Assembly: GCF_038562415.1 (NCBI RefSeq)
Contig: NZ_JBCFBA010000012.1
Coordinates: 1 to 64,000 of the forward strand
DNA: 64,000 nt
Direction of reading: 5' to 3'
DNA from: Solidesulfovibrio sp.
GTDB taxonomy: Bacteria; Desulfobacterota; Desulfovibrionia; Desulfovibrionales; Desulfovibrionaceae
The notes under the pieces are model-generated. The model worked only from the letters and a program-made list of their open reading frames with translations. It searched no databases and was not told the origin of the DNA. Of this stretch, positions 28,018-44,961 are shown piece by piece. A program made the translations under genes and the position numbers. Every line of letters starts with the position of its first letter. The first letter of the stretch is position 1.

Positions 28018-28125
28018 CCCGGCGGCATTGGGGGCTTCGGGCTGTGCGCACCGCCTGGCCCATGTCTGGAAAACCGCGGGATAGTCCGGTCGCACCGACA
28101 GGCAAACAGGGAAAAGGAGGGAGGC

Positions 28126-28422: not shown

Positions 28423-28439
28423 CACGCGGTATTGGGCAA

Positions 28440-28484
28440 AACGCGCCCGGATGCCCCGGTCTGGGCGCGTTGCACAGGTTTTTT
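28440..28484 (+). terminator. probable terminator after the EF-hand lipoprotein gene
   Basis: AACGCGCCC (28440-28448) pairs with GGGCGCGTT (28463-28471). A run of six T follows at 28479-28484, eight bases past the stem, which is looser than a classical terminator. Confidence 0.5.
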
Positions 28485-28499
28485 CCGGAAAGGAATTCC

Positions 28500-29375
28500 A
28501 TGCCGCCCCTTTTTGTCGCCGAGATTTCGAGCAACCACAATCAGGATATCGACCGGTGCTTGCGCTTCGTGGACGTGGCCGCCGCGATCGGCTGCGGCGC
28601 CGTCAAGTTCCAGCTGTTCACCGTGGCCGATCTGTTCGCCCCGGAGATCCTGGCCGCAAGCGCCAGGCACCGGGCCAGGCGGGCCTACGAGCTGCCGGTG
28701 TCGTTTCTGCCGGCCATCGCCGGGCGCTGCCGTCAGCGGGGCGTCCTTTTCGGCTGCACGCCCTTTTCCCTGGCCGCCGTGGAACAACTGGCCGGCTATG
28801 TCGATTTCCTGAAAATCGCCTCCTACGAACTGTTGTGGCCGCCCCTGGGCGCGGCCTGCGCGGCCACGGGCCTGCCCGTCATGCTGGCCACGGGCCTGGC
28901 CGACCTGGCCGAAGTGGCCGGGGCCGTGGAGAATCTCCGCCGGGCCGGCTGCCCCGAGCCGACCCTGCTCCATTGCGTGTCCGCCTATCCCCTGCCGCCC
29001 GGAGAGGCCAACCTGGCCGCCATCGACAGCCTGCGCCGCGCCTTCGGCCTGCCGGTGGGCTGGTCGGACCACAGCCGCTGTCCGGGCGTCATCCACCGGG
29101 CCGTGCACCGGTTCGGGGCCGAGGTGGTGGAGTTGCATCTGGACCTGGAGGGGGAGGGCCGGGAATACGGGGCGGGGCATTGCTGGCTGCCCGGGGAACT
29201 GGCCGAGTGCATCCGCGACGTGGCCGCCGGGTTGGCCGCCGACGGCGACGGGATCAAGGCCTGCGCCCCCTGCGAAGCCCCGGACCGGGATTGGCGGGCC
29301 GACCCGCACGACGGGTTGCGCCCCCTGCGCCGGGTGCGGGCCGGCTTTACCGGCGACAACGGAGGCGCGTCATGA
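28500..29375 (+). CDS. NeuB/SpsE-family PEP-dependent sugar-acid synthase lacking a SAF domain
   Basis: 291 aa from the ATG at 28500 (AAGGA upstream). Family motifs: 'FVAEISSNHNQDIDRCL' (start of the TIM barrel), 'AVKFQLFTVADLF', 'FLKIASYEL', 'LLHCVSAYPLPPGEANL' and 'VGWSDHSRCPG'. NeuB enzymes condense PEP with an amino- or keto-hexose to give nonulosonates. The C-terminal antifreeze-like SAF domain found in the paralogue at 44962 is missing and the barrel is slightly short, so the substrate probably differs. First gene of a fifteen-gene run; its stop overlaps the next ATG. Confidence 0.85.
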   Translation: MPPLFVAEISSNHNQDIDRCLRFVDVAAAIGCGAVKFQLFTVADLFAPEILAASARHRARRAYELPVSFLPAIAGRCRQRGVLFGCTPFSLAAVEQLAGYVDFLKIASYELLWPPLGAACAATGLPVMLATGLADLAEVAGAVENLRRAGCPEPTLLHCVSAYPLPPGEANLAAIDSLRRAFGLPVGWSDHSRCPGVIHRAVHRFGAEVVELHLDLEGEGREYGAGHCWLPGELAECIRDVAAGLAADGDGIKACAPCEAPDRDWRADPHDGLRPLRRVRAGFTGDNGGAS

Positions 29376-30898
29376 ACCGGGAGGCCAAGCTCAAGACCCT
29401 GGGCGAACTGGCCGCCATCATCGCCGCACACAAGGCCGCCGGCCGCACGGTGGTTCACTGCCACGGCGTCTTCGACCTGCTGCACATCGGCCACATCCGC
29501 TATTTCAGCCAGGCCCGGGAACTCGGCGACCTGCTGGTGGTCACCCTGACCCCGGACCGCTACGTGGACAAGGGGCCGCACCGGCCGGCCTTTTCCGAGC
29601 GGCTGCGGGCCGAGGCGCTGGCCTCCCTTGGCGACGTCGACTACGTGGCCATAAACGAAACCCCCACCGCCGTGGAGACGCTTTTTCGCCTGCGGCCGGA
29701 CGTCTACGTCAAGGGCGAGGAATTTCGCACCGTCGCCGCGGACATGACCGGCAAGATGGGCCTGGAGGCCGAGGCGGTGGAGAAAATCGGGGCCAGGCTG
29801 GCCTTCACCGGCGACATCGTTTTCAGCTCGAGCAGCCTCATCAACCGCTACCTGTCCAATTTCCCCGAGGAACTGCGGGAATACCTCAACGTCTTCCGCC
29901 AGCGCTACGCCCTGCCCGAGGTCCTGGCCGCCGTGGACCGCATGGGGGGGCTGCGCGTGCTGGTGGTGGGCGACGCCATCCTCGACGAGTACCAGTACGG
30001 CCAGGCCATCGGCAAATCGTCCAAGGACCCGGTGCTGGCCCTGCGCTACCATTCGAGCGACCTGTTCGCCGGCGGCGCCTTGGCCGTGGCCAACCACCTG
30101 GCCGATTTCGCCGGCGAGGTGGGGCTTCTCACCGTGCTCGGCGAGCACCAGCGCCACGAGGAATTCATCGTCTCCCAACTCGACCCGCGCATCCGCCGGG
30201 TCTTCCACACCCGGCCGGGCGCGCCGACCATCCTCAAGCGCCGTTTCATCGATTCGGAATCCTTGAACAAGCTCCTCGAACTCTACGTCATGGACGACGC
30301 GCCCATCCCCCCGGAACTGGACGCGGCCATGGCCGCGACGTTTTCGGAGCTGGCCGGCGGCTACGACCTGGTCATCGCCGCCGACTTCGGCCACGCCAGC
30401 ATCGGGCCGCGCCTGCTGGCCGCCCTGTGCGACGGGGCGCCCTTTCTGGCCGTCAACACCCAGGCCAACGCCGGCAACCGGGGGTTCAACACCATCTCCC
30501 GCTACCGGCGGGCCGACGTGGCCTTTCTGGCCGAACACGAACTGCGCCTGGAAACGCGCGACCTCGAACGCGACGTGCGCCCGCTCATGGAGGGCGTCAG
30601 CGCCGCCCTGAGGGGCGCCTATTGCGTGGTGACCACCGGCCGGCAGGGCTGTTCGGTGCTCGGCCCGGGCGGCGCCTTCGTCAAGGTGCCGGCCCTGGCC
30701 GCCACGGTGGTGGACCGGGTGGGCTCGGGCGACGCCTTTTTTTCCGTGGCGGCCATGGCCGCGCGGCTGGGGCTGCCCGAGGAGCTCATCGGCTTTCTCG
30801 GCAACGTCGCCGGCGGCCAGGCGGTGGAGACCATCGGCAACAAGAAACCCGTGCGTTCCCTGGCCATCAAGAAAAGCCTGACCGCACTGCTCAAATAG
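29372..30898 (+). CDS. reversed HldE-like protein: nucleotidyltransferase followed by PfkB sugar kinase
   Basis: 508 aa. Residues ~20-160 are a cytidylyltransferase-fold domain ('VVHCHGVFDLLHIGHIRYF', HxGH; 'KGEEF'; 'FSSSSLINRYL'). Residues ~190-508 are a PfkB kinase ('VLVVGDAILDEYQYG', 'FAGGALAVANHLA', 'VVDRVGSGDAFFSVAAM' with the catalytic G-S-G-D). Classical HldE has the opposite order. Such proteins can phosphorylate a sugar and activate it with a nucleotide. The gene is coupled to the synthase upstream by ATGA, so it likely works on a sugar of the same pathway. AMP versus CMP cannot be told. Confidence 0.88.
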   Translation: MNREAKLKTLGELAAIIAAHKAAGRTVVHCHGVFDLLHIGHIRYFSQARELGDLLVVTLTPDRYVDKGPHRPAFSERLRAEALASLGDVDYVAINETPTAVETLFRLRPDVYVKGEEFRTVAADMTGKMGLEAEAVEKIGARLAFTGDIVFSSSSLINRYLSNFPEELREYLNVFRQRYALPEVLAAVDRMGGLRVLVVGDAILDEYQYGQAIGKSSKDPVLALRYHSSDLFAGGALAVANHLADFAGEVGLLTVLGEHQRHEEFIVSQLDPRIRRVFHTRPGAPTILKRRFIDSESLNKLLELYVMDDAPIPPELDAAMAATFSELAGGYDLVIAADFGHASIGPRLLAALCDGAPFLAVNTQANAGNRGFNTISRYRRADVAFLAEHELRLETRDLERDVRPLMEGVSAALRGAYCVVTTGRQGCSVLGPGGAFVKVPALAATVVDRVGSGDAFFSVAAMAARLGLPEELIGFLGNVAGGQAVETIGNKKPVRSLAIKKSLTALLK

Positions 30899-30900
30899 CC

Positions 30901-31887
30901 ATGCCCAGCCGCTACCCGACCTTCGACCGCGCCGCCTTGCGGCTGTTGCCCCTGGCCCGCCGCGAAAACGACCTGACCGCCTCGGTCATCCGCGACCCCG
31001 CCCCCACGGCCACGGTGCGCGAACCCTTTGCCCGCATCGCCGCGCGCCTGGTCGCGGCCAGGCAAACCGGGGCCACGCGGGCGCTGATGCTGGGCGCCCA
31101 TGTCCTGCGCCGCGGCCTGCAACGCTACCTCGTCGACCTCATGGAATCCGGCTGCCTGGACGTGGTCGCCGTCAACGGCGCCTGCGCCATCCACGACTTC
31201 GAACTGGCGCTTATTGGTGCCACCACCGAATCCGTGGCCCGCTACGTCCGGGAGGGCCAGTTCGGGCTGTGGCGCGAAACCGGCCGGCTCAACGACATCG
31301 TGCGCCAGGCCGCGGGCGATGGCCTGGGCCTGGGCGAGGCCGTGGGCCGGGCCATCCGGGAAGGCGATTTCCCGGGCAAGGCCGACAGCCTCCTGGCCCG
31401 GGCCTATGCCCTGGACGTCCCGGTCACGGTCCATGTCGGCATCGGCTGCGACATCACCCACGAGCACCCCAACTGCGACGGCGCGGCCTACGGCGCGGCC
31501 AGCTACCGCGATTTCCTCGTCTTCACCCAGTGCCTCACCCGCCTGGCCGGCGGGGTGGTCATGAATTTCGGCAGCGCGGTCACGGCGCCCGAAGTCTTCC
31601 TCAAGGCCCTGGCCATGGTGCGCAACGCCACCCTGGCCCGGGGCGAGGCCATGGGCGGATTCGCCAGCCTCGTGTGCGACCTGCGCCCCCTGCCCGAAAC
31701 CTACGCCCGCCAAGCGCCCAAATCCGACCCCGACTACTATTTCCGCCCCTGGAAGACCATGCTCGTGCGCACCCCGGGCGAAGGCGGCGAGAGCCGCTAC
31801 GTCCGGGGGGACCACGCCGAGACCGTGCCGGAACTGTGGACCGCCCTGGCCCGGCTGGGGGCTTTCGAGGGCGCCGGACGTGGCTGA
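30901..31887 (+). CDS. conserved protein of unknown function, possibly deoxyhypusine-synthase-like fold
   Basis: 328 aa, starting two bases after the kinase stop. Striking conserved-looking stretches are 'LMLGAHVLRRGLQRYLVDLMESG', 'NGACAIHDFELALIGATTESV', 'VTVHVGIGCDITHEHPNCDG', 'GAASYRDFLVF' and 'NFGSAVTAPEVFLKAL'. No signal peptide or membrane segment. The pattern of glycine-rich strands and the GSAVTAPEVF segment recalls Rossmann-type NAD-binding proteins of the deoxyhypusine-synthase kind, but I cannot confirm this. Placement between an activating kinase and a glycosyltransferase suggests a role in sugar metabolism. Confidence 0.55.
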   Translation: MPSRYPTFDRAALRLLPLARRENDLTASVIRDPAPTATVREPFARIAARLVAARQTGATRALMLGAHVLRRGLQRYLVDLMESGCLDVVAVNGACAIHDFELALIGATTESVARYVREGQFGLWRETGRLNDIVRQAAGDGLGLGEAVGRAIREGDFPGKADSLLARAYALDVPVTVHVGIGCDITHEHPNCDGAAYGAASYRDFLVFTQCLTRLAGGVVMNFGSAVTAPEVFLKALAMVRNATLARGEAMGGFASLVCDLRPLPETYARQAPKSDPDYYFRPWKTMLVRTPGEGGESRYVRGDHAETVPELWTALARLGAFEGAGRG

Positions 31888-33430
31888 GCCTGGCGGGCGG
31901 CTGCTGGTCGTCGGCACGGCCAAGCCCGACTACGTGGAACGCTTCCTGGCCCGGCCCGAGGCGGCCGGCGCGGCGCTTTTGGCCGCGCGGCGCGACCGGG
32001 AACGCTTTGCCGGCCGGGCCGGCCGGGCCTTTTATTTCTCGGGGACCCTGCGCTGGTTCACCCCGGCCCTGCTGGCCGCCTTCGCGGCCGTGCGGCCGGA
32101 CCGGGTGGTGATCGTGTGCGGCCTGGCCTTCGACCACGCCAACGTGGTGGAGGCGGCCCGCATCGCCTCGTCCCTGCTGGGCCGGCCGGCGGACGTCCGG
32201 GTGGCGGTGGACCGGGCCGTGCTGCCGCCGCCGCCCCTGCCCGGCCGGGGGCCGGCCTGGCTGGAGATCTTGCGCCTGTTCCCGCTGGCCGCCCTGGCCG
32301 GCCTGGTGTGGCTGGCCCGGCCCTGGCGCACGGTGCGCGTGGGGGCCATCTACGCCCACCGCCTGGGCCACCTGGCCCTTGATTGCGAGATCTACCTGTG
32401 CGAGCGCGACCTGGGCGAGGTGCCGCCGCGCTGCCTGGACATCTTCTATCCCGAGTCCGGACGGGTGGCCAACGCGCCCCTGCTGGCCATGTTCGGCCGG
32501 TGCATGCGCATCCACCCGGCCGGGCGCTGGCTGCGCGAGGCCGTGGACCTGTTTGGCCTCGGGGCGCGCCACGAGGCGGTCATGGCCACCCACCGCATGC
32601 CCTTCGCCCGCGACGCCGCCTGCCTCATGCAGCGCGTCCCGGCCCACCTGCGCCTGACCGAGGCCGAGCGCCGCCGGGGCGAGGCCGGGCGACGCGCCCT
32701 CGGCCTGCCGCCCGGGGTACCCCACGTCTGCCTGCTCGGCCGCGACGACCGCTACCTGCGCGCCGTCAGCGGCGAACACGGCGACGGCGGCCACCAGTGG
32801 CCGCGCAACATGGACATCGCCGCCTTCGGCCCGGCCGCGTTGGCCCTGGCCGAACGCGGCTACGCCGTGGTGCGCATGGGCAGCCTCGTGGCCGAGCCCT
32901 TCGCCGTCGACCATCCCCTGGTCTTCGACTACGCCAGCCACCCGGCCCGCGACCCCTTCCTGGACATCTTCCTCGCCGCCACCTGCCGGTTTTTCGTGGG
33001 CGCGCCGAGCGGGCTGCTCCACGTGCCCATGGTCTTCCGCATCCCCTGCCTGTCGGTGAACCTGGCCCGGGTGGGGCTCATGCACGCCTGCGACCCGCGC
33101 GACATGACCATCTTCAAGCTGTTGCGCCTGCGCCGCGAAAACCGCCTGCTGACCCTAAGCGAAATCCTGGCCACGGGCCGGGCCGTGCGGCGCATCGAGG
33201 AGGCGGCGGCGGATGCGGACGTGGACTACCTGGACAACACCCCCGAGGACATCCGCGACGCGGCCCTGGAAATGCACGAACGCCTGGACGGCACCTGGCG
33301 CGACGCGCCCGGGGACGCCGCGCTGCAGGAGCGCTTCCGCCGCTTGTTTCCCCCGGACGCCTACAACCGCTGCCGCCGAAGCCCCGTCGGGACGGCCTTT
33401 TTGCGCCGCCACCGCGACCTGCTGCGCTAA
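31880..33430 (+). CDS. TIGR04372-like glycosyltransferase
   Basis: 516 aa from a GTG overlapping the previous gene by eight bases. The second half has the features of the TIGR04372 family: 'VCLLGRDDRYL', 'QWPRNMDIAAFGPAALALAERGYAVVRMGS' and 'CRFFVGAPSGLLHVPMVFRIPCLSVNLA'. A hydrophobic stretch near residues 125-145 may associate with the membrane. These proteins are found in surface-polysaccharide clusters and are taken as GT-B enzymes. Donor unknown; it may use the sugar made by this operon. Confidence 0.75.
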   Translation: MAEPGGRLLVVGTAKPDYVERFLARPEAAGAALLAARRDRERFAGRAGRAFYFSGTLRWFTPALLAAFAAVRPDRVVIVCGLAFDHANVVEAARIASSLLGRPADVRVAVDRAVLPPPPLPGRGPAWLEILRLFPLAALAGLVWLARPWRTVRVGAIYAHRLGHLALDCEIYLCERDLGEVPPRCLDIFYPESGRVANAPLLAMFGRCMRIHPAGRWLREAVDLFGLGARHEAVMATHRMPFARDAACLMQRVPAHLRLTEAERRRGEAGRRALGLPPGVPHVCLLGRDDRYLRAVSGEHGDGGHQWPRNMDIAAFGPAALALAERGYAVVRMGSLVAEPFAVDHPLVFDYASHPARDPFLDIFLAATCRFFVGAPSGLLHVPMVFRIPCLSVNLARVGLMHACDPRDMTIFKLLRLRRENRLLTLSEILATGRAVRRIEEAAADADVDYLDNTPEDIRDAALEMHERLDGTWRDAPGDAALQERFRRLFPPDAYNRCRRSPVGTAFLRRHRDLLR

Positions 33431-33453
33431 GGCAGCGCGGCCAGGAGGACCGG

Positions 33454-34641
33454 ATGCCGGCACCATGCATCGCCTGCGGGCACGAGGCCGCCGCCCCGCT
33501 GCTCGACCTGGGGGACATCCCGGCCAGCGGCGTTTTCCTTGAAAGCCCCGACCAGGCGCCGGCCACCGTCCGCCTGGCCTACGCGTTCTGCCCGGTCTGC
33601 GGCCTGATCCGCCAGCGCGGCGCCCCGGCCGAAACCGCTTACGCCGGGGCCGACCGGGCCACGGCCCGGCGCCAGTTCGCCTACGTCCACGACCTGCTGC
33701 GGCGCACCGCCGCCCTGGCCCCGCCCGGCGACGGCCTCGTCCTGGACGTGGGGGCCAACGACGGGGCCTTCCTGGACCTGGCCGCCCGGGCCGGCTACCG
33801 CCGGCGGCTGGGCGTGGAGCCGTCCCGGGCCTGCGCCGCCGCCTGCGCCGCCCGGGGCCACGCCGTGGTCGCCGCCCCCCTGGACCGGGACACGGCCGCG
33901 GGCATCCGCCGGGAACACGGCCCGGCCGCCATCGTCTTTTGCCGCCACACCATCGAGCACGTCGCCGACCCGCTGGGCTTGCTGGAGGCGGCGGCGGCCT
34001 GCCTGGCCCCGGACGGGCTGCTGGTCCTCGAAACCCCTCACGCCGCCTGGCCCGTGGCCGCGCTTCGCGTCCACGAACTGTGGCAGGAGCATCTGTTTGT
34101 CTTCCACCCGGCCAACCTGACCCGGCTGCTCGGCCGGGCCGGGTTGGCCGTGGTCGCGGCCGAGGCCTACCGCCACGACGGCACCTTCGACCAGGTATGC
34201 TGGGCCAGGCCGGGGCTTGCCGCCCGGCCGGGCACGCCGCCGGCCTTCCTGGAGGCCTGCCGCGCCCTCGGGGGCCGGTTCGCGGCCTTCGCCGCCGGGC
34301 TGCGCCACCGGGCGGCCGGCTGGCCCCGGCCCGTGGCGGCCATGGGCGCGGCCCACGTGCAGGCCCACTTCCTGCTTTTCACCGGCCTTGGCGCGGTGGT
34401 GGACCACATCCTGGACGACGACCCGCGAAAGCGCGGTCGGTGGCTGCCCGTGCCCCGGCCGGTGCCCGTGATCGGCACGGCCGAGGGCATCGCCCGCGCC
34501 CCGGCCACGCTGTTGGAAACCGCCTTCGCCTATCCCGACTGGACGCGCCGGGTGCGGGAAGGACTGGGGCCGGCGGCCGTCGCGGTCGATCCCTACGCCG
34601 GTGTGGCCTGGGACCCGGACGGCGCCGGCCGTAAGCCCTGA
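33454..34641 (+). CDS. sugar C-methyltransferase-type protein (Zn-binding, SAM and C-terminal domains)
   Basis: 395 aa; CCAGGAGGA precedes the ATG. Three parts: an N-terminal zinc-ribbon-like segment with CIACG and CPVCGL, a SAM domain with 'GLVLDVGANDGAFLDLAARAG' and 'CRHTIEHVADPLGLLEAA', and a C-terminal Rossmann-like domain ('AMGAAHVQAHFLLF', 'DHILDDDPRKRG'). That architecture is the one of TylC3-type C-methyltransferases, which methylate C3 of NDP-4-keto sugars to make branched-chain sugars. A 4-keto sugar substrate is therefore likely in this operon. Confidence 0.85.
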   Translation: MPAPCIACGHEAAAPLLDLGDIPASGVFLESPDQAPATVRLAYAFCPVCGLIRQRGAPAETAYAGADRATARRQFAYVHDLLRRTAALAPPGDGLVLDVGANDGAFLDLAARAGYRRRLGVEPSRACAAACAARGHAVVAAPLDRDTAAGIRREHGPAAIVFCRHTIEHVADPLGLLEAAAACLAPDGLLVLETPHAAWPVAALRVHELWQEHLFVFHPANLTRLLGRAGLAVVAAEAYRHDGTFDQVCWARPGLAARPGTPPAFLEACRALGGRFAAFAAGLRHRAAGWPRPVAAMGAAHVQAHFLLFTGLGAVVDHILDDDPRKRGRWLPVPRPVPVIGTAEGIARAPATLLETAFAYPDWTRRVREGLGPAAVAVDPYAGVAWDPDGAGRKP

Positions 34642-34743
34642 TCCCGGCCCTCCCCGGGTGGCGCGGCGGTGGACGGGGCCGCCCCGGGCGGCTACTGTCT
34701 GGCCCCGCGACGAACGCGGCCCCTTGCCCACAGGAGAACGATC

Positions 34744-35739
34744 ATGGACAACGTGAAGTCGGTCTGCGTCACCGGCGGCGCCGGGTACGTCGGCTCCGCC
34801 CTGGTGCCGGGGCTGCTCGCGGACGGCTACAAGGTGACCGTGCTGGACCTGTACCTTTACGGCCAGGAAGCGCTGGCCGCCTGCCGGGGCAATCCGGCCC
34901 TGACGGAGGTCGCCGGCGACATCCGCGACACCGCCCTGCTGCGCCGCGTCCTCCCCGGCCACGACGCGGTCATCCACCTGGCCTGCATTTCCAACGACCC
35001 GAGCTACGAGCTCAATCCGGCCCTGGGCAAGTCCATCAACTACGACGCCTTCCCGCCCCTGGTCGCGGCAAGCAAGGCCGCCGGGGTCAGGCGCTTCCTC
35101 TACGCCTCGAGCTCCAGCGTCTACGGCATCAAGGACGACGCCGAGGTCACCGAGGACCTGCCGCTTGCGCCCCTGACCGACTATTCCCGGTACAAGGCCC
35201 TGTGCGAGGACTACCTGCACGCCGCCGGCGGCGAGGGCTTTACCGTCACGACACTTCGCCCGTCCACGGTCTGCGGCTACGCCCCCCGGCTGCGCCTGGA
35301 CCTGACGGTCAACATCCTGACCAGCCACGCCCTCGGCAAGGGCGTGATCACGGTGTTCGGCGGCGGGCAAAAACGGCCCAACCTGCACATCGACGACATG
35401 GCCGACGTCTACCGCCAACTGCTCAAGGAACCGGCGCGGCGCATCCACGACAAGATCTACAACGTGGGCTACCAGAACTACACCGTCCGGGAGATCGCCG
35501 AGATCGTGCGCCGCACGCTCGGGGGCGACATCGCCGTCACGGTGACCCCGAGCAACGACAACCGTTCCTACCACGTCAATGCCGACAAGATCCGGCGCGA
35601 ACTGGGCTACGCCCCGACCCGGACCCTGGAGGACGCCGTGCTGGGCCTGCAGCGGGCCTTCGCCGGGGGGCTGATTCCCGATCCCGACGACATCAAGTAC
35701 TCCAACATCAAGACCATGCGACACGCGAACCTGGCCTAA
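34744..35739 (+). CDS. NAD-dependent nucleotide-sugar epimerase/dehydratase (extended SDR)
   Basis: 331 aa. 'VCVTGGAGYVGSALVPGLLADGYKVTVLD' binds NAD. 'YASSSSVYG' and 'YSRYKALCEDYL' give the Ser and Y-x3-K catalytic residues. 'LRPSTVCGYAPRLRLDL' and 'NLHIDDMADVY' follow. Members epimerise or reduce NDP-sugars. Together with the preceding C-methyltransferase it could epimerise or reduce a 4-keto sugar after methylation. Gap to the upstream gene is 102 bases, the largest in this operon, with CACAGGAGAACG as the ribosome site. Confidence 0.87.
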   Translation: MDNVKSVCVTGGAGYVGSALVPGLLADGYKVTVLDLYLYGQEALAACRGNPALTEVAGDIRDTALLRRVLPGHDAVIHLACISNDPSYELNPALGKSINYDAFPPLVAASKAAGVRRFLYASSSSVYGIKDDAEVTEDLPLAPLTDYSRYKALCEDYLHAAGGEGFTVTTLRPSTVCGYAPRLRLDLTVNILTSHALGKGVITVFGGGQKRPNLHIDDMADVYRQLLKEPARRIHDKIYNVGYQNYTVREIAEIVRRTLGGDIAVTVTPSNDNRSYHVNADKIRRELGYAPTRTLEDAVLGLQRAFAGGLIPDPDDIKYSNIKTMRHANLA

Positions 35740-35744
35740 CCGCC

Positions 35745-37507: not shown

Positions 37508-38327
37508 CACGCCGCTGGATGCGACCTCGCGCCGCCTGCGCGCCCGGATCGCCGACATCCTCGCCTGCAGCCGGCGCGGCCACCTCGGTTCGGCCTTTTC
37601 GCTGATCGAGCTTCTGCGCGCCCTCTACGACGGCTTCCTGCGCTACGACCCCGCGCGGCCCCGCTGGGACGGCCGGGACCGCTTCATTTTGAGCAAGGGC
37701 CACGGCTGCCTGGCCCAGTACGTGTTTCTGGCCGAGAAGGGCTTCATCGACGCGGCGGAACTGCGGCTTTTCTGCCGGGCGGAAGGCATCCTGGGCGGCC
37801 ATCCCGAGGCCGCCAAGATCCCGGGCGTCGAGTGCTCCACGGGGTCGCTGGGCCACGGCCTGCCCATCGGCGTGGGCATGGCCCTGGCCGCCCGGCTGCG
37901 GGGGCAGGCCCACCGGGTGGTGGTGGTGCTCGGCGACGGGGAATGCGACGAGGGCACGGTCTGGGAAGCGGCCCTTAGCGCCGGCAACCGGGGCCTGTCC
38001 AACCTGCTCGCGTGCGTGGACTACAACAAGATGCAGTCCTACGGCGCCACGGCCGCCGTGGCCGACCTGGATCCCCTGGCCGCCAAGTGGCGGGCCTTCG
38101 GCTTCGCCGCGCGCGAGGTCGACGGCCACGACCTGGCCGCCCTGGGCCGGGCCTTGTCCGCCTTCCCCTTCGCCCCGGACAGGCCCTCGTGCCTGATCTG
38201 CCACACGGTCAAGGGCAAGGGCCTGGCCCTGGCCGAAAACAACCTCGACTGGCACCACAAGTCGGCCCTGACCGACGCCGACCTGGCGGCCATCCGCCAG
38301 GGGCTGGCCTGCCCGGGAGGCGCGTAG
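37467..38327 (+). CDS. transketolase-like protein, N-terminal (TPP-binding) half
   Basis: 286 aa from the ATG at 37467, set by AAGGAG just upstream, although this overlaps the kinase gene. Motifs: 'RRGHLGSAFSLIELLRALY', 'RFILSKGHGCLAQYVFL', 'GSLGHGLPIGVGMALA' and the TPP signature 'VVLGDGECDEGTVWEAAL...N'. It pairs with the next gene to form a split transketolase, as in other sugar clusters. The subunit binds the diphosphate of TPP. A ketose is made by moving a two-carbon unit; this one probably serves the dedicated sugar pathway. Confidence 0.9.
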   Translation: MSHAASTTGQIGLDTPLDATSRRLRARIADILACSRRGHLGSAFSLIELLRALYDGFLRYDPARPRWDGRDRFILSKGHGCLAQYVFLAEKGFIDAAELRLFCRAEGILGGHPEAAKIPGVECSTGSLGHGLPIGVGMALAARLRGQAHRVVVVLGDGECDEGTVWEAALSAGNRGLSNLLACVDYNKMQSYGATAAVADLDPLAAKWRAFGFAAREVDGHDLAALGRALSAFPFAPDRPSCLICHTVKGKGLALAENNLDWHHKSALTDADLAAIRQGLACPGGA

Positions 38328-38328
38328 C

Positions 38329-39252
38329 ATGCGCCGGAAATGCCTGGACATGGTGACCGCCCTGGCCCGGCGCGACCCGCGCGTGGTGTTCGTGGGCTCG
38401 GACCTGGGCCACGGCACCCTGGCCGATTTTCGCCGGGAGATGCCCGAGCGCTTCTTCATGGAGGGCATCAGCGAGGGCCATGTCCTGGGCCTGGCCGCCG
38501 GCCTGGCCCTGGAAGGCTTCGTGGTCTACGTCAACACCATCGCCACCTTTCTCACCCGCCGGGCCTACGAGCAGGCCGTGCTGGACCTGGGGCTGCACAA
38601 CCTGCCCGTGCGGCTGATCGGCAACGGCGGCGGCCTGGTCTACGCCCCCCTCGGCCCGACCCACCTGGCCACCGAGGATCTGACCACCTTCCGGGCCATC
38701 CCCAACATGGCCGTGATCTGCCCGGCCGACGCCACGGAAATGGAACGCTTCATGCCCCAGACCCTCGACTGGCCCGGGCCCATCTACATCCGGCTGGGCA
38801 AGGGCCACGACCCCGTGGTCACCCCGCCGGGCGCGCCCTTCGTCATCGGGCGGGGCCAGCTGCTGCGGCCGGTGGGCCGGGTGCTGCTCGTGACCACCGG
38901 GGTCTGCCTGGGGCCGGTGCTGGAGGCGGCCGACCTGCTCGGCGCCGGCGGCATCGTCGCCGGGGTGCTGCACCTGCCCACGGTCAAGCCCCTGGACGCG
39001 GAACTGCTGCGCCAAGCCATGGCCCAGGCCCGGGCCGTGGTCACGGTGGAGGAGAACACCATCCTCGGGGGCCTGGGCGGCGCCGTGGCCGAGGTGCTGG
39101 CCGAGGCCGACTTCCCGCAGGCCAAGCGCTTCCGGCGTATGGGCCTGCCCGACGTTTTTCCCGACTGCTACGGCACGCAAAAGGGCCTTTGGCAACGGTA
39201 CGGACTGACCCCGGCCGCCATCCGCGACACGGCCGCCGGGATCGCGGAGTAG
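38329..39252 (+). CDS. transketolase-like protein, C-terminal (pyrimidine-binding) half
   Basis: 307 aa, one base after the N-half gene. 'VVFVGSDLGHGTLADF', 'FFMEGISEGHVLGLAAGLALEGFVVYVNTIATFLTRRAYEQ' (the catalytic Glu region), 'GNGGGLVYAPLGPTHLATEDL' and the regulatory-domain stretch 'LLVTTGVCLGPVLEAADLL' match transketolase/DXS C-terminal halves. Active only as a complex with the neighbour. Because central metabolism normally has its own fused transketolase, this split pair points to a special ketose. Confidence 0.9.
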   Translation: MRRKCLDMVTALARRDPRVVFVGSDLGHGTLADFRREMPERFFMEGISEGHVLGLAAGLALEGFVVYVNTIATFLTRRAYEQAVLDLGLHNLPVRLIGNGGGLVYAPLGPTHLATEDLTTFRAIPNMAVICPADATEMERFMPQTLDWPGPIYIRLGKGHDPVVTPPGAPFVIGRGQLLRPVGRVLLVTTGVCLGPVLEAADLLGAGGIVAGVLHLPTVKPLDAELLRQAMAQARAVVTVEENTILGGLGGAVAEVLAEADFPQAKRFRRMGLPDVFPDCYGTQKGLWQRYGLTPAAIRDTAAGIAE

Positions 39253-39255
39253 GCC

Positions 39256-39918
39256 ATGGGACGGTTGCGCTCCTTTTTCACGCCCCTGCACCAGCGCACC
39301 AGCCGCGACTACCTCGCCCGCATGACCGACGACAAGGTCGGCTGCATGCGCGTGGCCAAGCGCTACGACGCCGACTACTGGGACGGCGACCGGCGCTTCG
39401 GCTACGGCGGCTACCGCTACGACGGCCGCTGGGCGCCCGTGGCCCGGGCCATGATCGAGGCCTACGGGCTGACCGCCGCGTCGCGCGTGCTGGACGTGGG
39501 CTGCGGCAAGGCCCATCTGCTCCACGAGCTGCGCGCGCTGCTGCCGGGGCTTACGGTGTGCGGCCTGGACGTCTCGGCCCACGCCCTGGCCGGGGCGCCG
39601 GCCTCGGTGCGGGCCGACCTGCGCCCGCACCGGGCCCAGGACCCCCTGCCCTTCGACGACGGCCAGTTCGACCTGGCCCTGTCCCTGGGCTGCCTGCACA
39701 ACCTGCGGTTGTTCGAGCTGGAGGCCGCCCTGGCCGGGATCGAGCGGGTGGGCCGGCGCAAGTTCGTCATGGTCGAAAGCTACCGGGACGAGCAGGAGCT
39801 GTTCAACCTCCAGTGCTGGGCGCTCACCTGCCAGGCCTTTTTCGATACGGCGGAGTGGGTTTGGCTTTTCGAGCGGTTCGGCTACACCGGCGATTACGAA
39901 TTCATCTATTTCACCTAA
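39256..39918 (+). CDS. class I SAM-dependent methyltransferase
   Basis: 220 aa. Residues ~1-70 include 'RYDADYWDGDRRFGYGGYRYDGRW', a stretch seen in sugar methyltransferases. Motif I 'RVLDVGCGKAHLLHELRALLP', post-I 'CGLDVSAHAL', and motif IV 'PLPFDDGQFDLALSLGCLHN' follow. It starts three bases after the transketolase stop. A small-molecule or sugar target is likely. Confidence 0.83.
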   Translation: MGRLRSFFTPLHQRTSRDYLARMTDDKVGCMRVAKRYDADYWDGDRRFGYGGYRYDGRWAPVARAMIEAYGLTAASRVLDVGCGKAHLLHELRALLPGLTVCGLDVSAHALAGAPASVRADLRPHRAQDPLPFDDGQFDLALSLGCLHNLRLFELEAALAGIERVGRRKFVMVESYRDEQELFNLQCWALTCQAFFDTAEWVWLFERFGYTGDYEFIYFT

Positions 39919-39931
39919 GCGGCCGGATGCC

Positions 39932-40999
39932 ATGCAACGCTATACCCCGCTCAAGATTTTCCATTACACCGACAAGCTCGACGCGCTGCCCCGGGAGACG
40001 GGCCGGGTGGAAGCGCCCGTGCATGTCCGCCTCAAGCCCACCAACCAATGCAACCACGCCTGCGCCTACTGCGCCTACCGGTCCAAGGCCCTGCAACTGG
40101 GCCGGGACATGCGCCTGGCCGACAGCCTGCCGCGCCGCAAGATGCGGGAAATCGTCGACGACCTCGTGGACATGGGCGTGGGGGCCGTGACCTTCAGCGG
40201 CGGCGGCGAACCCTTCGTCTATCCCCACCTGGCCGAGGCGGCCGACCGGCTGGCCGCTGGCGGCGTACGCATCGCCAGCCTGACCAACGGCGGGCGGCTC
40301 GCGGGCGAGGCGGCCGACGTGTTCGCCCGGCGGGGGACCTGGCTACGGGTGTCCATGGACGGCTTCGACGGGCCGAGCTACGCCCGTTACCGGGGCGTGG
40401 CCGAGGACGAATTCGACCGGGTGCTCGGCAACATCCGGCGGTTCGCCGCCCTGGGCGGCCCCTGCCGGCTGGGGGTGAGCTACGTCGTGGACCGGGGCAA
40501 CGCCCACAAGGTCCGCGACATGGCCGCGCGGCTCAAGGACCTGGGCGTGGACAGCTTCAAGGTCTCCCCCTGCGTGGTGGCCGACGACGCGGCGGCCAAC
40601 AATGCCTATCACGAACCGCTGTTCGCCCTGGTGCGCCCCGCCGTGGACGCCATCCTGGAAACCCTGGCCGGCGACGGCTTCGAGGTCTTCGACGCCTACC
40701 ACGCCTTTTCGGGGCGCTTCGCCAAACGCTACTCCTGGTGCCCCTCCCTCCAGCTGCTTGCGGTCATCGGCGCGGACCAGCGCGTCTACGCCTGCCAGGA
40801 CAAGGCCTACAACCGCCGCTGCGGCCTGCTCGGCAGCATCCGGCGGCGGCGGTTCAAGGAGTTCTGGCTGGACGGCAAGGACAAGTTCTTCGCCATCGAC
40901 CCGTCCCGCGACTGCCCCCACCACTGCGTGGCCCAGGCCAAAAACGAACTGGTGCTCGGCTACCTGGGCGCGGACCCGCAACACCTGCCCTTCGTGTGA
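39932..40999 (+). CDS. radical SAM protein with SPASM-like C-terminal cysteines
   Basis: 355 aa. 'LKPTNQCNHACAYCAYR' holds the radical SAM cysteines (Cys40, 44, 47). 'GAVTFSGGGEPFVYPHL' is the SAM-binding G-G-E-P motif. C-terminal cysteines (YSWCPSL, YACQDKAYNRRC, RDCPHHC) fit an auxiliary cluster as in SPASM or twitch domains. Related enzymes dehydrogenate sugars and aminocyclitols. It likely oxidises or rearranges the operon's sugar intermediate; this is inference. Confidence 0.85.
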   Translation: MQRYTPLKIFHYTDKLDALPRETGRVEAPVHVRLKPTNQCNHACAYCAYRSKALQLGRDMRLADSLPRRKMREIVDDLVDMGVGAVTFSGGGEPFVYPHLAEAADRLAAGGVRIASLTNGGRLAGEAADVFARRGTWLRVSMDGFDGPSYARYRGVAEDEFDRVLGNIRRFAALGGPCRLGVSYVVDRGNAHKVRDMAARLKDLGVDSFKVSPCVVADDAAANNAYHEPLFALVRPAVDAILETLAGDGFEVFDAYHAFSGRFAKRYSWCPSLQLLAVIGADQRVYACQDKAYNRRCGLLGSIRRRRFKEFWLDGKDKFFAIDPSRDCPHHCVAQAKNELVLGYLGADPQHLPFV

Positions 41000-41004
41000 C
41001 CGCC

Positions 41005-41892
41005 ATGCCGCCCGCCCGCCCCGCCCCGCCCGCCATCCCCCGCCTCGCCGTCATCGGCGCCGAGGGCTTTCTCGGCCGGCGCCTGCTGGCGGCCGCGCGG
41101 GCGGCCCAGCCCGGGGCCGTGGGCACGTCCCACCAGCCGCACGCGGGATTGCTGCCCCTCGACCTGGCCCGGCCCGACCGCGACCCGGCGTTTGGGGCCA
41201 CAGGCGGGCCCACCGTGGCGGTCATCGCCGCCGGCGTGACCCGTGTGGACCGCTGCCAGCGCGACCCGGACGGCACGGCGGCCGTCAACGTCCACGGCAC
41301 GCTGCGCCTGGCCGCGTGCCTGGCCGCAGGCGGGATCCGGCCGATATTTTTGTCCTCGGACCGGGTCTTCGACGGCCGCGAGGGCGCGCCCTTCGACGAA
41401 ACGGCCCGGCCCGAGGCGGCCTCGGTGTACGGGCGCCAGAAGCTCGCCGTGGAACGGGCCTTGCTGGATGCCTGCCCGGGGGCGCTGGTGGTGCGCCTGA
41501 GTAAGCTCTACGGCCCGGCCCGGGGGGACGGCGGCCTCTTCGACGCCATGGCCGACCGGCTTATGGCCGGCCGGCCCGTCGACCCGCCCTACGACCAGTT
41601 TTTCAACCCCACCAGCGTCGCGGACGCGGTGGAAGCGATCCTGCGGCTGGCCGCCGCCGGCACGGCCGGCATCGTCCATGTCTGCGCCGAGCCCCCCTGC
41701 GGCCGGCGGGAGCTGGGCCTGCGCCTGGCCGAGCTCTTGCGGGCCGATCCGGCCCTCGTGCCGCCGCCGCCCGGGCCGACGCTGCGCACGGCCCTGGTCG
41801 CCGGCCGGCTCGGGGCCGAAACGGGCGTGACGCCCCTGGCGCCCCTGGAGGGGCTGGCCCGCTTTGCCGCGAGCTGCGGCGCGACGGCCTGA
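41005..41892 (+). CDS. RmlD-like NDP-4-keto-sugar reductase (SDR)
   Basis: 295 aa. 'RLAVIGAEGFLGRRLLAAARAAQPG' binds NAD(P)H. 'VIAAGVTRVDRCQRDPDGTAAVNVHGTLRLA', 'FLSSDRVFDGREGAPFDETARPEAASVYGRQKLAVERAL' (Y-x3-K) and 'PPYDQFFNPTSVADAVEAIL' are RmlD-type motifs. It probably reduces a keto group on the NDP-sugar late in the pathway. It lies between radical SAM and methyltransferase genes. Confidence 0.85.
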   Translation: MPPARPAPPAIPRLAVIGAEGFLGRRLLAAARAAQPGAVGTSHQPHAGLLPLDLARPDRDPAFGATGGPTVAVIAAGVTRVDRCQRDPDGTAAVNVHGTLRLAACLAAGGIRPIFLSSDRVFDGREGAPFDETARPEAASVYGRQKLAVERALLDACPGALVVRLSKLYGPARGDGGLFDAMADRLMAGRPVDPPYDQFFNPTSVADAVEAILRLAAAGTAGIVHVCAEPPCGRRELGLRLAELLRADPALVPPPPGPTLRTALVAGRLGAETGVTPLAPLEGLARFAASCGATA

Positions 41893-41916
41893 CGAAACAC
41901 CAACGGAGCCACGGCA

Positions 41917-42609
41917 ATGGATACACCCGACGAACCAACGGCGCGCCAGCGCTGGCAGCGCGTGCGCGACCTCGAAACCCCCGGCCGGCGGGTGGTGCTT
42001 GGCCAAAACGCTTCCTGGAAGCTGGCCGACGACCCCCGCCACCTGCTCTTCACCTTCGCCCGCTACAAGCACGCCGCCCGGCTCCTGCCCCGGCGGCCGG
42101 GCAAGGCCGTGCTCGAACTGGGCTGCGGCGAGGGGCTGGGCGCCTTTTTCCTGGCCGAGGGGGCGGGGAGGGTCCTTGGCGTGGATTTCGACGCCGCCGC
42201 CCTGGAGGCGGCCCGGGCGGCCTGCGACCTGCCGGGCGTGGAATTTCGCCAGGCCGACTTCCTGGGCGCCGCCTTCGGCGCCTTCGACGGCGTGGTCAGC
42301 CTGGACGTGATCGAACACATCGCGCCCGAGGCCGAGGAGGCCTTCCTGCGAACCCTGACGGCCAACCTGGCCCCGGGGGGCGTGTGCGTCGTGGGCACGC
42401 CCAACGCCACGGCCCAGGCCCACGCCTCGCCGGGCAGCCGCATCGGCCACGTCAACCTCTACACCGGCGAACGCCTCTACGAGAGCCTGACCCGCCATTT
42501 CGCCAACGCCTTCGTCTTCGGCCTCAACGACGAAACGCTCCACACGGGCTTTCTGCCCATGTGCCACTACCTGCTGGCCGCCGCCTGCGGCCCGCGCCAG
42601 GCGGCCTGA
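41917..42609 (+). CDS. class I SAM-dependent methyltransferase
   Basis: 230 aa. Motif I 'AVLELGCGEGLGAFFLAEGA', post-I 'GVDFDAAALEAARA', motif IV 'FDGVVSLDVIEHI' and 'LAPGGVCVVGTPN' are textbook Methyltransf_11/23. It is the third methyltransferase of this operon. The 'IGHVNLYTGERLYE' stretch is typical of surface-sugar methylases. Target unknown. Confidence 0.85.
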   Translation: MDTPDEPTARQRWQRVRDLETPGRRVVLGQNASWKLADDPRHLLFTFARYKHAARLLPRRPGKAVLELGCGEGLGAFFLAEGAGRVLGVDFDAAALEAARAACDLPGVEFRQADFLGAAFGAFDGVVSLDVIEHIAPEAEEAFLRTLTANLAPGGVCVVGTPNATAQAHASPGSRIGHVNLYTGERLYESLTRHFANAFVFGLNDETLHTGFLPMCHYLLAAACGPRQAA

Positions 42610-42613
42610 AGGC

Positions 42614-44284
42614 ATGGACGGTCGCGACGCCCCTCCCCTGCTGCGCCGGGAATTTCTGCGCCTGGTCACCCGCAGCCCCAAAAGCGCCCCCCTGCTCGTC
42701 CTGGCCCTCGAACGGACGCTTTCGGCCTTGCCCGCCGGCAGCCGGCTGGCCCTGTACGGCTGCGGCACCTACGCCCAGGCCCTGGTGGACAAGGCCCCGC
42801 AGGCCCTGCGCCGCCTGGACGTCTGTTTCGTGACCTCGGATCCGGCCGGCCAGACCGATTTCCGGGGCTTTCCCCTGTGCGCCCCCCAGGCGCTGCAAGA
42901 CGCGCCGCCCGCCAAGGTCGTGCTGCTCAGCGCCACCTACGGCCACGAGATGCGGGCCAGGCTGCCGTTTCTGCCGCCCGAGGCGATCATCGACCTGGAA
43001 GCGGCGGTTGCGGCCTACGGCCTCGACGCCCTGTACGCCCTGGCGGCGGGCCAGGCCCGGAAACGGGCGCGGACGGCGGCGGCCCGGCTGGCCCGGACGC
43101 TGCCGAACGACCGGAAGCTGATCCTTTTCATGGTGCCCAAGGCACCGCAGCACCTGATCAAGACCATGCGGGCGGTGCGCCGCCAGGGCCAGGCCGTGGT
43201 CCTGGCCGTGCAGGACCAGGCCATCACGCAGGATGTCGGCGTGGGCGGGTATGTCGCGCGGGGCGTGCTCGACGGGCTTCATGAAACCGGGGTGTGCTTT
43301 TCCCTGGAATGCCTGGAACTGGCCCGACTGTTGCGGCCGCACTGCGTCCACGCCGTGGCCGGCATGTGGAACAACGAGGGCCTGGCCGCCTTCCTGGCCC
43401 ACACCGACCGGCCGACCGTGGTGGAATACTGCGACATCAAGCAGTTGGTGTTCAAAAACGACGCCGACGCCAGGCGCTACCTGCGCCAGGACGAAGCGGA
43501 ATACGCCGCGGAACGCCAGGCCGCCGCGGCCGTCTATACCGGCGCCCGCGGCGTGATCATCAAGGAGTCGCCCGAGGTCATCGACGCCCTGGCCGCCCTG
43601 CACGGCGGCCACCGGCCGCCGGCCGTGCTGCGGTTCGCCCACTACGTCAGCCCTGAGCTGCTCGCCCCCCCGGGCACGGCCAAGCTGTCCGAAACGGATG
43701 GCGGCTTCCATTTCGTCTATGCCGGCGGCCTGGGCAACGACCCGGCCTGGCACAACTACCCGGTCTGCCGCAGCCTGCTTGCGGCGGCGAAAATCCTGGA
43801 GGCCCAGGGCATCCACCTCGACGTCTACAACGCCTCGGACGCCACGGGCGCGGGCTTCGAGGACTTCGTGCGCCTCGGCCGGACCTCCCGGTATTTCCGC
43901 TACCACTTCGCCGTGCCCTACGAACGGCTGCGCGAGGTCCTGCCGCGCTACGACTGCGGCTGGTTCTGCTTCGATTTCAGCCGGGCCAGGGAAAACCCGC
44001 TGTTTTACCGGACGGCCATGGGTTCCAAGATCTTCGCCTACCTGGAATCGGGCCTGCCCGTGGCCGTGGCCCCGCAGCAGGCCAACATGCTGGATTTCGT
44101 GACCCGCCACGGCATCGGCCTGGGTCTGGACTTCACCGACCTGCCGCGCCTGGCCGCCATCGTCGCGGCCACGGACTGGGCGGCCTTTGGCCCCCCCATC
44201 GAACGGGCTCGCCGGGAACTGACCTACGAACGCCACGCGCCCCGGCTGGTCGCCTTTTACGAGCAGCTGTCCAGGTTGCCCTAG
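42614..44284 (+). CDS. GT-B-like glycosyltransferase with N-terminal Rossmann-like domain
   Basis: 556 aa. Residues ~30-150 form a small domain ('SRLALYGCGTYAQALVDKA', 'AKVVLLSATYGHEMR') like those appended to sugar-cluster methyltransferases and glycosyltransferases. Residues ~175-550 look GT-B: 'RKLILFMVPKAPQHLIKTMRAVRRQG', 'CVHAVAGMWNNEG', 'FHFVYAGGLGNDPAWHNYPV', 'AMGSKIFAYLESGLPVAVAPQQANM', the last resembling the donor site of family 4. Final gene of the long plus-strand run, ending 69 bases before the convergent acyltransferase gene, with no clear terminator between. Confidence 0.72.
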   Translation: MDGRDAPPLLRREFLRLVTRSPKSAPLLVLALERTLSALPAGSRLALYGCGTYAQALVDKAPQALRRLDVCFVTSDPAGQTDFRGFPLCAPQALQDAPPAKVVLLSATYGHEMRARLPFLPPEAIIDLEAAVAAYGLDALYALAAGQARKRARTAAARLARTLPNDRKLILFMVPKAPQHLIKTMRAVRRQGQAVVLAVQDQAITQDVGVGGYVARGVLDGLHETGVCFSLECLELARLLRPHCVHAVAGMWNNEGLAAFLAHTDRPTVVEYCDIKQLVFKNDADARRYLRQDEAEYAAERQAAAAVYTGARGVIIKESPEVIDALAALHGGHRPPAVLRFAHYVSPELLAPPGTAKLSETDGGFHFVYAGGLGNDPAWHNYPVCRSLLAAAKILEAQGIHLDVYNASDATGAGFEDFVRLGRTSRYFRYHFAVPYERLREVLPRYDCGWFCFDFSRARENPLFYRTAMGSKIFAYLESGLPVAVAPQQANMLDFVTRHGIGLGLDFTDLPRLAAIVAATDWAAFGPPIERARRELTYERHAPRLVAFYEQLSRLP

Positions 44285-44353
44285 CCACAGACGGTCATTT
44301 CGCGGCCCGCAGCACGCCGTGAAGGACAACAGGCCCGGCGGCCGGCCACCGTT

Positions 44354-44935: not shown

Positions 44936-44961
44936 TGGCGAAGCTCCCGGTTTTGCCGGCC

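Follow-up and report, generated by a model that had tools for sequence, protein, structure and literature searches.

We propose that a fifteen-gene operon of Solidesulfovibrio sp., a sulfate-reducing bacterium, serves to build an activated sugar not yet described and to transfer it to a surface glycan, by a heptose-like route that includes oxidation and transfer of a two-carbon (C2) unit. We put the probability of this reading at roughly one half. The product is possibly a branched sugar. Comparison of related loci indicates that the operon is built around a core cassette of g02, g06–g11 and one oxidation enzyme (g12 or a Zn dehydrogenase), whose order is conserved across phyla. A first-pass annotation of the same DNA had suggested an activated-sugar pathway matching no recognised one, and we judge this to be likely.

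The operon occupies positions 28500–44284 of the window, that is, the whole stretch of 64,000 nucleotides that was analysed (Table 1). Its fifteen ORFs all lie on the + strand, and in each of them GC is 0.89–0.94 at the third codon position and 0.44–0.60 at the second. The successive spacings from g01 to g15 are −4, 2, −8, 23, 102, 5, −4, −41, 1, 3, 13, 5, 24 and 4 bp. With co-directional ORFs and no gap above 102 bp, the coupled fifteen-gene run described earlier is borne out. The stop of g08 is at 37507, and g08 therefore overlaps g09 by 41 bp. A consensus scan of 27900–45100 found no sigma-70-like promoter, and terminator-like matches in this region were at chance level (10 found, 9.2 expected). 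It is plausible from this arrangement that the fifteen genes form a single transcript.

Table 1. Genes of the operon, with window positions and the main basis of each assignment.
Gene	Predicted product	Position	Strand	Basis
g01	NeuB-family PEP-condensing synthase without SAF (module A)	28500..29375	+	PF03102 167.6 bits
g02	Nucleotidyltransferase-PfkB kinase, HldE-like, domain order reversed	29372..30898	+	CTP_transf_like + PfkB
g03	GSU2086-family protein, deoxyhypusine-synthase/AgrE-like NAD-binding fold	30901..31887	+	NCBIfam NF052581 353.5 bits, cut-off 250
g04	Glycosyltransferase	31880..33430	+	TIGR04372 202 bits, cut-off 45
g05	Methyltransferase, putative zinc-binding N-terminus	33454..34641	+	PF13489 85.8 bits; PF08421 30.6 bits, just below cut-off
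g06	SDR, probable sugar-nucleotide dehydrogenase (core cassette)	34744..35739	+	Best solved relative 6vo6/6vo8
g07	HAD phosphatase (core cassette)	35745..36428	+	DxDNT, S, K and DD motifs unchanged across 18 sequences
g08	APH/choline-kinase-like sugar kinase (core cassette)	36425..37507	+	Residues of the kinase motifs unchanged across 19 sequences (Solidesulfovibrio protein compared up to 11 residues before its end)
g09	Transketolase N-terminal half, ThDP site (core cassette)	37467..38327	+	PF00456 155.5 bits
g10	Transketolase C-terminal half, altered acceptor pocket (core cassette)	38329..39252	+	PF02779, PF02780
g11	Class I SAM methyltransferase (core cassette)	39256..39918	+	Relatives in 474/519 pattern-matched stretches
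g12	Radical SAM enzyme, probable alcohol dehydrogenase	39932..40999	+	PF04055; fold nearest DesII, SkfB, BlsE
g13	RmlD-like reductase	41005..41892	+	PF04321 119 bits
g14	Class I methyltransferase	41917..42609	+	Family profile match
g15	Protein with no family match; glycosyltransferase per first-pass annotation	42614..44284	+	No Pfam match at E ≤ 1, no NCBIfam match at E ≤ 0.001

Most of the families read from the sequence at first were recovered by profile searches. The g01 synthase has the NeuB-family domain and lacks a SAF domain, as had been claimed, and it scored 146 bits against the NeuB_NnaB model (cut-off 400). A NeuB paralogue in the same window (44962–46026) carries a SAF domain. The same agreement was obtained for the nucleotidyltransferase-kinase g02, the glycosyltransferase g04, the SDR, both halves of the split transketolase, two further methyltransferases, the radical SAM enzyme and the RmlD-like protein. 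For g03, described as an unknown conserved protein, a family was found (Table 1). The protein labelled a C-methyltransferase, g05, has a Methyltransf_23 match, with Methyltransf_13 just below its cut-off. The HAD (g07) and kinase (g08) labels draw on conserved motifs, and for g08 also on the RefSeq label of a homologue; neither protein had a Pfam match over the cut-off. The glycosyltransferase label of g15 is not confirmed because the protein matched no Pfam or NCBIfam family at the thresholds in Table 1, and no relative of it was detected in any of the 80 loci compared below (E ≤ 1e-8).

The comparison covered these 80 of the 474 relatives of g11. Judged by gene order in them, SDR-HAD-kinase-TktN-TktC-methyltransferase (g06–g11) together with g02 is a recurring syntenic cassette. 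The transketolase is present in 52 of the 80 loci. Within these 52, relatives of the HAD phosphatase occur in 40, of the kinase in 38 and of g02 in 30 (11 of them at ≥40% identity), and a g06-type SDR (≥38% identity) occurs in 24; a wider SDR count of 33/52 takes in SDR2-type matches. HAD and kinase are fused in one ORF in 18 of the 38 loci scored. According to record titles, the transketolase–methyltransferase pair extends over ten bacterial phyla, and the order of the core genes recurs in other phyla beyond chance. The first-pass annotation would have given up its pathway if gene content were not co-conserved; for the core genes, co-conservation was found. As controls from the convergent operon of the window, PseG, NeuA and NT-MT were found in 0/80 loci and a generic methyltransferase in 11/80, and the upstream B12 radical SAM gene was found in 4/80. 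Among named plasmid records there was one close g11 match, on Solidesulfovibrio carbinolicus pDCAR1, and phage records gave one weak and partial match. Seven genomes (Bradyrhizobium, Methylocapsa) had a methyltransferase–Zn dehydrogenase pair without a transketolase in the fetched stretch. In six of the seven, a close transketolase and most of the cassette are located elsewhere; in the other (G435) a close transketolase is absent from the genome.

The idea that all fifteen genes are one conserved unit did not survive this comparison. The genes g01, g03, g04, g05, g13 and g14 vary between the loci, with relatives of g13 in 12/80 and of g14 in 19/80, and the glycosyltransferases and other methyltransferases differ from locus to locus. 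A g01 relative was found in one of the 80 loci (27% identity), and GSU2086 (g03) in four, or five if a partial one is counted. Homologues of g01 with 57–62% identity lie ahead of g02 in two relatives. This distribution suggests that NeuB g01 and the GSU2086-family g03 make up a second, narrower module, and that g01 is a lineage-specific addition.

At three points the cassettes have one of two unrelated enzymes, or neither, but never both. The counts for Zn alcohol dehydrogenase, g12, both and neither were 34, 19, 0 and 5 (58 loci); for the g06-type SDR (SDR06), a second radical SAM enzyme (rSAM2), both and neither they were 24, 12, 0 and 10 (46 loci); and for GSU2086, SDR2, both and neither they were 8, 25, 0 and 8 (41 cassettes). 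With shared ancestry ignored, the p values for the three pairs in this order are 4e-11, 2e-5 and 1e-4. The GSU2086 cassettes are mostly from Desulfovibrionales. In a g11 tree in which most branches were weakly supported, at least 5 and at least 6 switches were counted, and an independent-pair test gave 1 pair on starred branches and 3 on all branches; correction of the exclusivity tests for ancestry by this tree was dropped because its support was too weak. The g12 enzyme never occurs alongside the Zn alcohol dehydrogenase, and it is therefore probably a radical SAM dehydrogenase standing in for the zinc enzyme. Its predicted model is nearest in fold to DesII, SkfB and BlsE. DesII acts on a sugar nucleotide and BlsE on a cytosine nucleoside. 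The best solved relative of g06 scored 149 bits, versus 107 for the next, and is presumably Cj1427, a sugar-nucleotide C4-dehydrogenase; g06 is thus a probable sugar-nucleotide dehydrogenase. Cj1427 is reported to oxidise GDP-manno-heptose at C4 (PMC10680097).

The split transketolase differs from a canonical one at the acceptor side. In E. coli numbering, g09/g10 keep H26, H66, H100, D155, N185 and H261, and in g10 H461 is replaced by G and D469 by L. We compared the Solidesulfovibrio pair with 30 close homologues (C-half identity ≥50%). H66, H100, D155, N185, H261 and H473 are kept in all 30, H26 and E411 in 29 (one gap each) and R358 in 28 (two gaps). D469 is L and R520 is K in 30/30; H461 is G in 29/30, the exception being L044, which has A; its C half is split in two and misaligns at this position. 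We take H26, H66, H100, D155, H261, E411 and H473 to be the ThDP and catalytic residues of transketolase, and H461 and D469 to be acceptor-pocket residues, of which H461 binds the acceptor phosphate. Thus the catalytic residues of a canonical transketolase are present and H461 and D469 are not, which indicates an enzyme with intact catalytic residues and a rebuilt acceptor pocket. Since R358 is kept and R520 is K, the phosphate site may partly survive. H461, D469 and R520 are all kept in the full-length housekeeping transketolase encoded by the same genome, and in split pairs that belong to a nonulosonate-type cluster (L045, L060).

The genome has other genes for core heptose. An HldE at 19881–21530 of the window scores 491 bits (cut-off 521) and exceeds both domain cut-offs, and HldD is encoded in the same window. 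By the HldE models g02 is below both cut-offs (139 bits versus 521; 104 versus 345). Given HldE and HldD in the window, g02 is a divergent paralogue, surplus to core heptose, and g02 and g03 were ruled out as the core heptose enzymes of this genome. Domain profile searches found no GmhA-like isomerase among the fifteen ORFs; three gmhA-family matches elsewhere in the genome, one of them at 9275–9661 of the window, are all below the cut-off. Of 53 related cassettes, 30 have a SIS (GmhA-like) protein within the sequence fetched. The Solidesulfovibrio operon has none, and the earlier suggestion of a complete pathway is not supported. The predicted model of g03 has moderate confidence (pLDDT 70), with Foldseek matches to 3c2q and DHS, and members of its family were detected in 250 of the 395 genomes sampled from the phylum. 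In a Tn-seq table, GSU2085 (hldE), GSU2086 and GSU2087 (gmhA) show similar defects. This table was all the literature found on GSU2086, and it is informative as to linkage, not function.

From these data we infer that the cassette acts as a side branch patterned after heptose synthesis. At the start, a ketose phosphate would be isomerised by the SIS protein present in relatives, phosphorylated at C1 by g08 or the g02 kinase, relieved of the phosphate at its other end by g07 and nucleotidylated by g02. SDR2 or g03 would then epimerise the sugar nucleotide, and g06 or rSAM2 would oxidise it to a 4-keto sugar. The transketolase g09/g10 would add a two-carbon ketol unit to this non-phosphorylated carbonyl, and g12 or the Zn dehydrogenase may oxidise a further hydroxyl. 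Methylation by g11 and other methyltransferases, reduction by g13 and transfer by g04 would complete the route. The step list is not universal, because some cassettes are without HAD, kinase, SDR or g02. More tentatively, this may be a widespread route in which a split transketolase, rebuilt for a keto sugar nucleotide, places a two-carbon branch on an oxidised heptose-type sugar nucleotide. Unrelated enzymes would interchange at three of its steps, at two of them with a radical SAM enzyme replacing an NAD- or zinc-dependent dehydrogenase.

The transketolase could instead act first, as in the first-pass annotation, which started from a ketose made by this enzyme. The ketose would come from an unphosphorylated aldehyde, g08 would phosphorylate it, an isomerase would give the aldose phosphate, g02 would activate it and the other enzymes would oxidise and methylate it, with branching at a keto carbon not required. 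This order suits the loss of H461 (an unphosphorylated acceptor) and the SIS proteins near 30/53 cassettes, and it gives the kinase a clear role. However, neither the Cj1427-like SDR nor the other oxidation enzyme would have any special tie to the transketolase, and the HAD–kinase fusion (18/38) would make less sense, unless phosphatase and kinase work at different positions. Three features, namely the changed acceptor pocket, the SDR resembling Cj1427 and the presence of a second oxidation enzyme, agree at least equally well with a keto sugar as the acceptor of the C2 unit. We regard the transketolase-first order as unlikely. That an ordinary transketolase feeds sedoheptulose 7-phosphate locally to a heptose pathway, the rest being unrelated tailoring genes, is improbable: the SIS, HldE-like, HAD and SDR members do resemble that pathway, but the Solidesulfovibrio pair and its close homologues no longer have H461 and D469, and the genome already has its housekeeping enzyme, with HldE and HldD close by.

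It is also quite unlikely that the operon is a patchwork of glycan genes that have nothing to do with one another and share no product. Such a patchwork would account for the variable genes g01, g03, g04, g05, g13 and g14 and for g15, and could hold for the genes outside the core; for the core it is already contradicted by an order that recurs across phyla with interchangeable enzymes. We give very little credence to the cassette being the pathway for bradyrhizose, a C10 sugar that C2 transfer could help to assemble. According to one paper (PMC4743980), the genes for bradyrhizose are unknown, and an eleven-gene cluster is proposed there. A sample of 242 Bradyrhizobium genomes had the transketolase in 61, but at the same share (E ≤ 1e-70) in those with photosynthetic reaction-centre genes (6/24) and in the others (55/218). 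In this sample it does not track photosynthetic Bradyrhizobium, which counts against bradyrhizose as the product. A search for a product name through Bradyrhizobium O-antigen chemistry gave nothing usable.

If C2 transfer onto an oxidised sugar nucleotide is correct, it would add C–C bond formation to sugar-nucleotide biosynthesis in many bacterial groups, including a SAR86 contig and Bradyrhizobium, and would predict an unrecognised surface sugar. It would also offer naturally occurring transketolases with which tertiary alcohols or branched sugars could be made, and testable functions for a radical SAM family and the widespread GSU2086 family. We found no published description of the cassette in the literature searched, most subscription papers being outside its coverage.

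Several known systems share parts of the operon. With the nonulosonate (sialic/pseudaminic acid) pathways it has a NeuB-family synthase in common, but g01 is without SAF and far below equivalog cut-offs, and the operon has no CMP-synthetase. In 2-deoxystreptamine synthesis, the radical SAM dehydrogenase BtrN has an NAD-dependent counterpart. Radical SAM and Zn dehydrogenase likewise alternate within one pathway here, although the g12 fold is nearer DesII, SkfB and BlsE, and BtrN matches the g12 profile weakly. The ADP-/GDP-heptose pathway (GmhA-HldE-GmhB-HldD) is resembled by the SIS isomerase of relatives, the HldE-like g02, the HAD and the SDR epimerase-like protein. Unlike HldE, g02 has reversed domains and is far below the HldE cut-offs; it exists alongside HldE and HldD, and the genes it is linked to encode a transketolase, methyltransferases and an oxidation enzyme. 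The capsular heptose modification of Campylobacter jejuni (Cj1427/MlghA and later steps) is approached by g06, whose nearest structures, 6vo6/6vo8, are presumably those of Cj1427, and by the RmlD-like reductase; unlike that system, the operon has an extra transketolase, kinase and radical SAM enzyme, and no C3/C5-epimerase counterpart was recognised among the fifteen genes. YerE is described as a decarboxylase that uses pyruvate, and the split transketolase of miharamycin is a proposed one (PMC12247030). By description, the operon is like these ThDP-dependent sugar-branching systems (YerE; the proposed miharamycin/amipurimycin split transketolases) in having a ThDP enzyme beside enzymes that could make keto sugars.

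The fifteen-gene operon (g01–g15) holds a conserved sugar cassette with a rebuilt transketolase. The first-pass annotation had read all fifteen genes as the makings of a complete pathway to an activated sugar; the cassette inside the operon is real, but the full gene set is less conserved and falls short of such a pathway. The genes are spaced at −41 to +102 bp, and their third-position GC is 0.89–0.94 in a window of 70% GC. The conserved protein left without a family, g03, matches the GSU2086 profile. The calls of HAD phosphatase g07 and sugar kinase g08 rest on motifs, with no Pfam match above cut-off, and g15, previously called a glycosyltransferase, matched no Pfam or NCBIfam family.

Features of the window and their positions
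Feature	Position	Strand	Observation
HldE	19881–21530	−	491 bits: below whole-protein cut-off (521), above both domain cut-offs
HldD	21448–22539	−	382 bits, above cut-off (275)
HldE + HldD	19881–22539	−	6 kb upstream of the operon
tRNA-Arg (ARAGORN)	20542–20625	−	within the hldE gene; probably spurious
Small ORF	28126–28422	+	directly upstream of the operon; lipoprotein-like with EF-hand-like motifs (read by eye)
Operon g01–g15	28500–44284	+	all genes on this strand
Convergent operon	44354–52050	−	downstream; hexapeptide acyltransferase, NeuB+SAF, split ThDP subunits, Fe alcohol dehydrogenase, methyltransferase, PseG-like, NeuA-like, methyltransferase

In a survey of 40 genomes, including that of the window, GSU2086 was present in 7 and the HAD phosphatase in 6. 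Comparison of regions of up to 20 kb showed two modules: A, NeuB–g02–g03, and B, HAD–kinase–TktN–TktC–methyltransferase(–radical SAM), where TktN and TktC are the transketolase halves. NeuB is present in genomes G008 and G020, and in G007 g02–g03 occur without it. Module B is found in G007, G008, G020 (without g12) and G037, and is rearranged in G011. Scanning genome contigs with an alignment of the methyltransferase g11 gave 474 relatives, and the best 80 of these 474 loci were examined further. Transketolase was present in 52 of the 80, together with relatives of the HAD phosphatase (40), kinase (38), nucleotidyltransferase-kinase g02 (30), g06-type SDR (SDR06; 24) and g12 (14). Control genes from the neighbouring operon were found in the same best 80 as follows: PseG, NeuA and NT-MT in none, NeuB+SAF in one, the ThDP subunit in two and a generic methyltransferase in 11.

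The recurring order is SIS–g02–SDR2–SDR06–HAD–kinase–TktN–TktC–methyltransferase–(Zn dehydrogenase or radical SAM), SDR2 being an epimerase-like SDR. Many loci depart from it, either by exchanging g02 and SDR2 or by placing HAD and kinase after the transketolase, and contig ends truncate some. In 18 of the 38 loci scored (all 18 within L061–L130), a single fused ORF encodes both HAD and kinase. By record title, many records being MAGs with possible binning errors, transketolase with g11 occurs in Verrucomicrobiota, Pseudomonadota, Thermodesulfobacteriota, Gemmatimonadota, Chlorobiota, Chloroflexota, Elusimicrobiota, Campylobacterota, Planctomycetota and Myxococcota, and in two archaeal records. 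A g11 relative in a record titled Klebsiella pneumoniae MAG (L064) probably lies on a mis-binned contig. The other 28 of the 80 loci, mostly Bradyrhizobium, lacked transketolase in the stretch examined, and 27 carry methyltransferase and Zn dehydrogenase. Six of seven genomes with such loci (five Bradyrhizobium, one Methylocapsa) encode a close transketolase elsewhere (56–58% identity), adjoining g02, SDR06, HAD and kinase; a wider draw found it in 61 of 242 Bradyrhizobium genomes.

Fusion of a GSU2086 domain to a g02-like nucleotidyltransferase domain (L053:9544–11052, minus strand) backs a common pathway for the two. Plasmid pDCAR1 of Solidesulfovibrio carbinolicus (L172) carries both modules alongside pseB, pseC, pseF and an MptE-like (Maf-like) protein; this company hints at glycosylation of flagellin or another protein.

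With E. coli transketolase as reference, the window pair and 30 close homologues retain the ThDP and catalytic residues. Like the window pair, the homologues have L469 (30/30), G461 (29/30) and K520 (30), and mostly G385. The G461 exception is misaligned at that site, its C half being in two pieces. These are overlapping ORFs in G007 (L044:13550–14529), and the cassette there may be broken or the sequence in error. Among 16 more distant split pairs G461 occurs in 14 and L469 in 12, and one Azospirillum plasmid pair has G461 too; LysW-linked and TRAP-linked pairs differ again. H461, D469 and R520 are retained in the housekeeping transketolase of the window's genome and in the split pairs of the nonulosonate-type cluster (L045, L060). 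H461 and D469 bind the acceptor. The acceptor of the cassette transketolase is therefore probably other than a standard phosphosugar, judging from these pocket residues. In L045 and L060 the NeuA–PseG–methyltransferase neighbourhood carries the canonical-pocket split transketolase instead of the ThDP subunits of the window's convergent operon, possibly another swap of C–C forming enzymes.

Across 58 cassette loci (window included), counted as loci and not as independent events, Zn dehydrogenase alone occurs in 34, g12-type radical SAM alone in 19, both in none and neither in five. Likewise, of the 46 loci with HAD, 24 carry SDR06 without rSAM2 (another family of radical SAM enzymes), 12 carry rSAM2 without SDR06, none carries both and 10 carry neither; rSAM2 is a single cluster of 15 out of 19 weaker radical SAM matches. 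SDR06 accompanies Zn dehydrogenase in 21 loci, the two radical SAMs co-occur in 11, rSAM2 with Zn dehydrogenase in none, and SDR06 with g12 in three (window, L084, L094). The 41 cassettes with g02 hold GSU2086 in eight, SDR2 in 25, both in none and neither in eight. The g11 tree gives at least five and at least six enzyme switches, weakly supported, and the independent-pair test was underpowered. Functional replacement is the simplest reading of this exclusivity; g12 would then be a radical dehydrogenase, and g03 would substitute for the epimerase-like SDR. The g12 model (pLDDT 81) is closest in fold to DesII, SkfB and BlsE, and its sequence profile to SkfB, MoaA and anSME, with BtrN weak. At TM-scores of about 0.5, the g03 model (pLDDT 70; five sequences) resembles LOR/SDH 3c2q, deoxyhypusine synthase and AgrE; weak sequence matches concur, and the predicted fold suggests NAD binding.

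The ThDP subunits of the convergent operon are split and sulfopyruvate/phosphonopyruvate-decarboxylase-like. With HldE and HldD upstream and NeuB+SAF, PseG-like, NeuA-like and ThDP-subunit genes downstream, the locus would be a large surface-glycan region. A role of g02 as the core heptose enzyme was ruled out, because HldE and HldD are encoded in the same window.

From family chemistry, the pathway would comprise isomerisation, phosphate steps, nucleotide transfer, epimerisation, C4 oxidation, C2 transfer and a second oxidation. In the literature, keto-sugar branching by split transketolases is a proposal for miharamycin and amipurimycin (PMC12247030), Cj1427 oxidises GDP-manno-heptose at C4 (PMC10680097), and Geobacter Tn-seq gives similar scores for insertions in GSU2085, GSU2086 and GSU2087 (PMC5585712). 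A literature search by title or abstract start, of incomplete coverage, found no description of the transketolase cassette, and it is apparently new to the literature. By kind it belongs to sugar-nucleotide biosynthesis.
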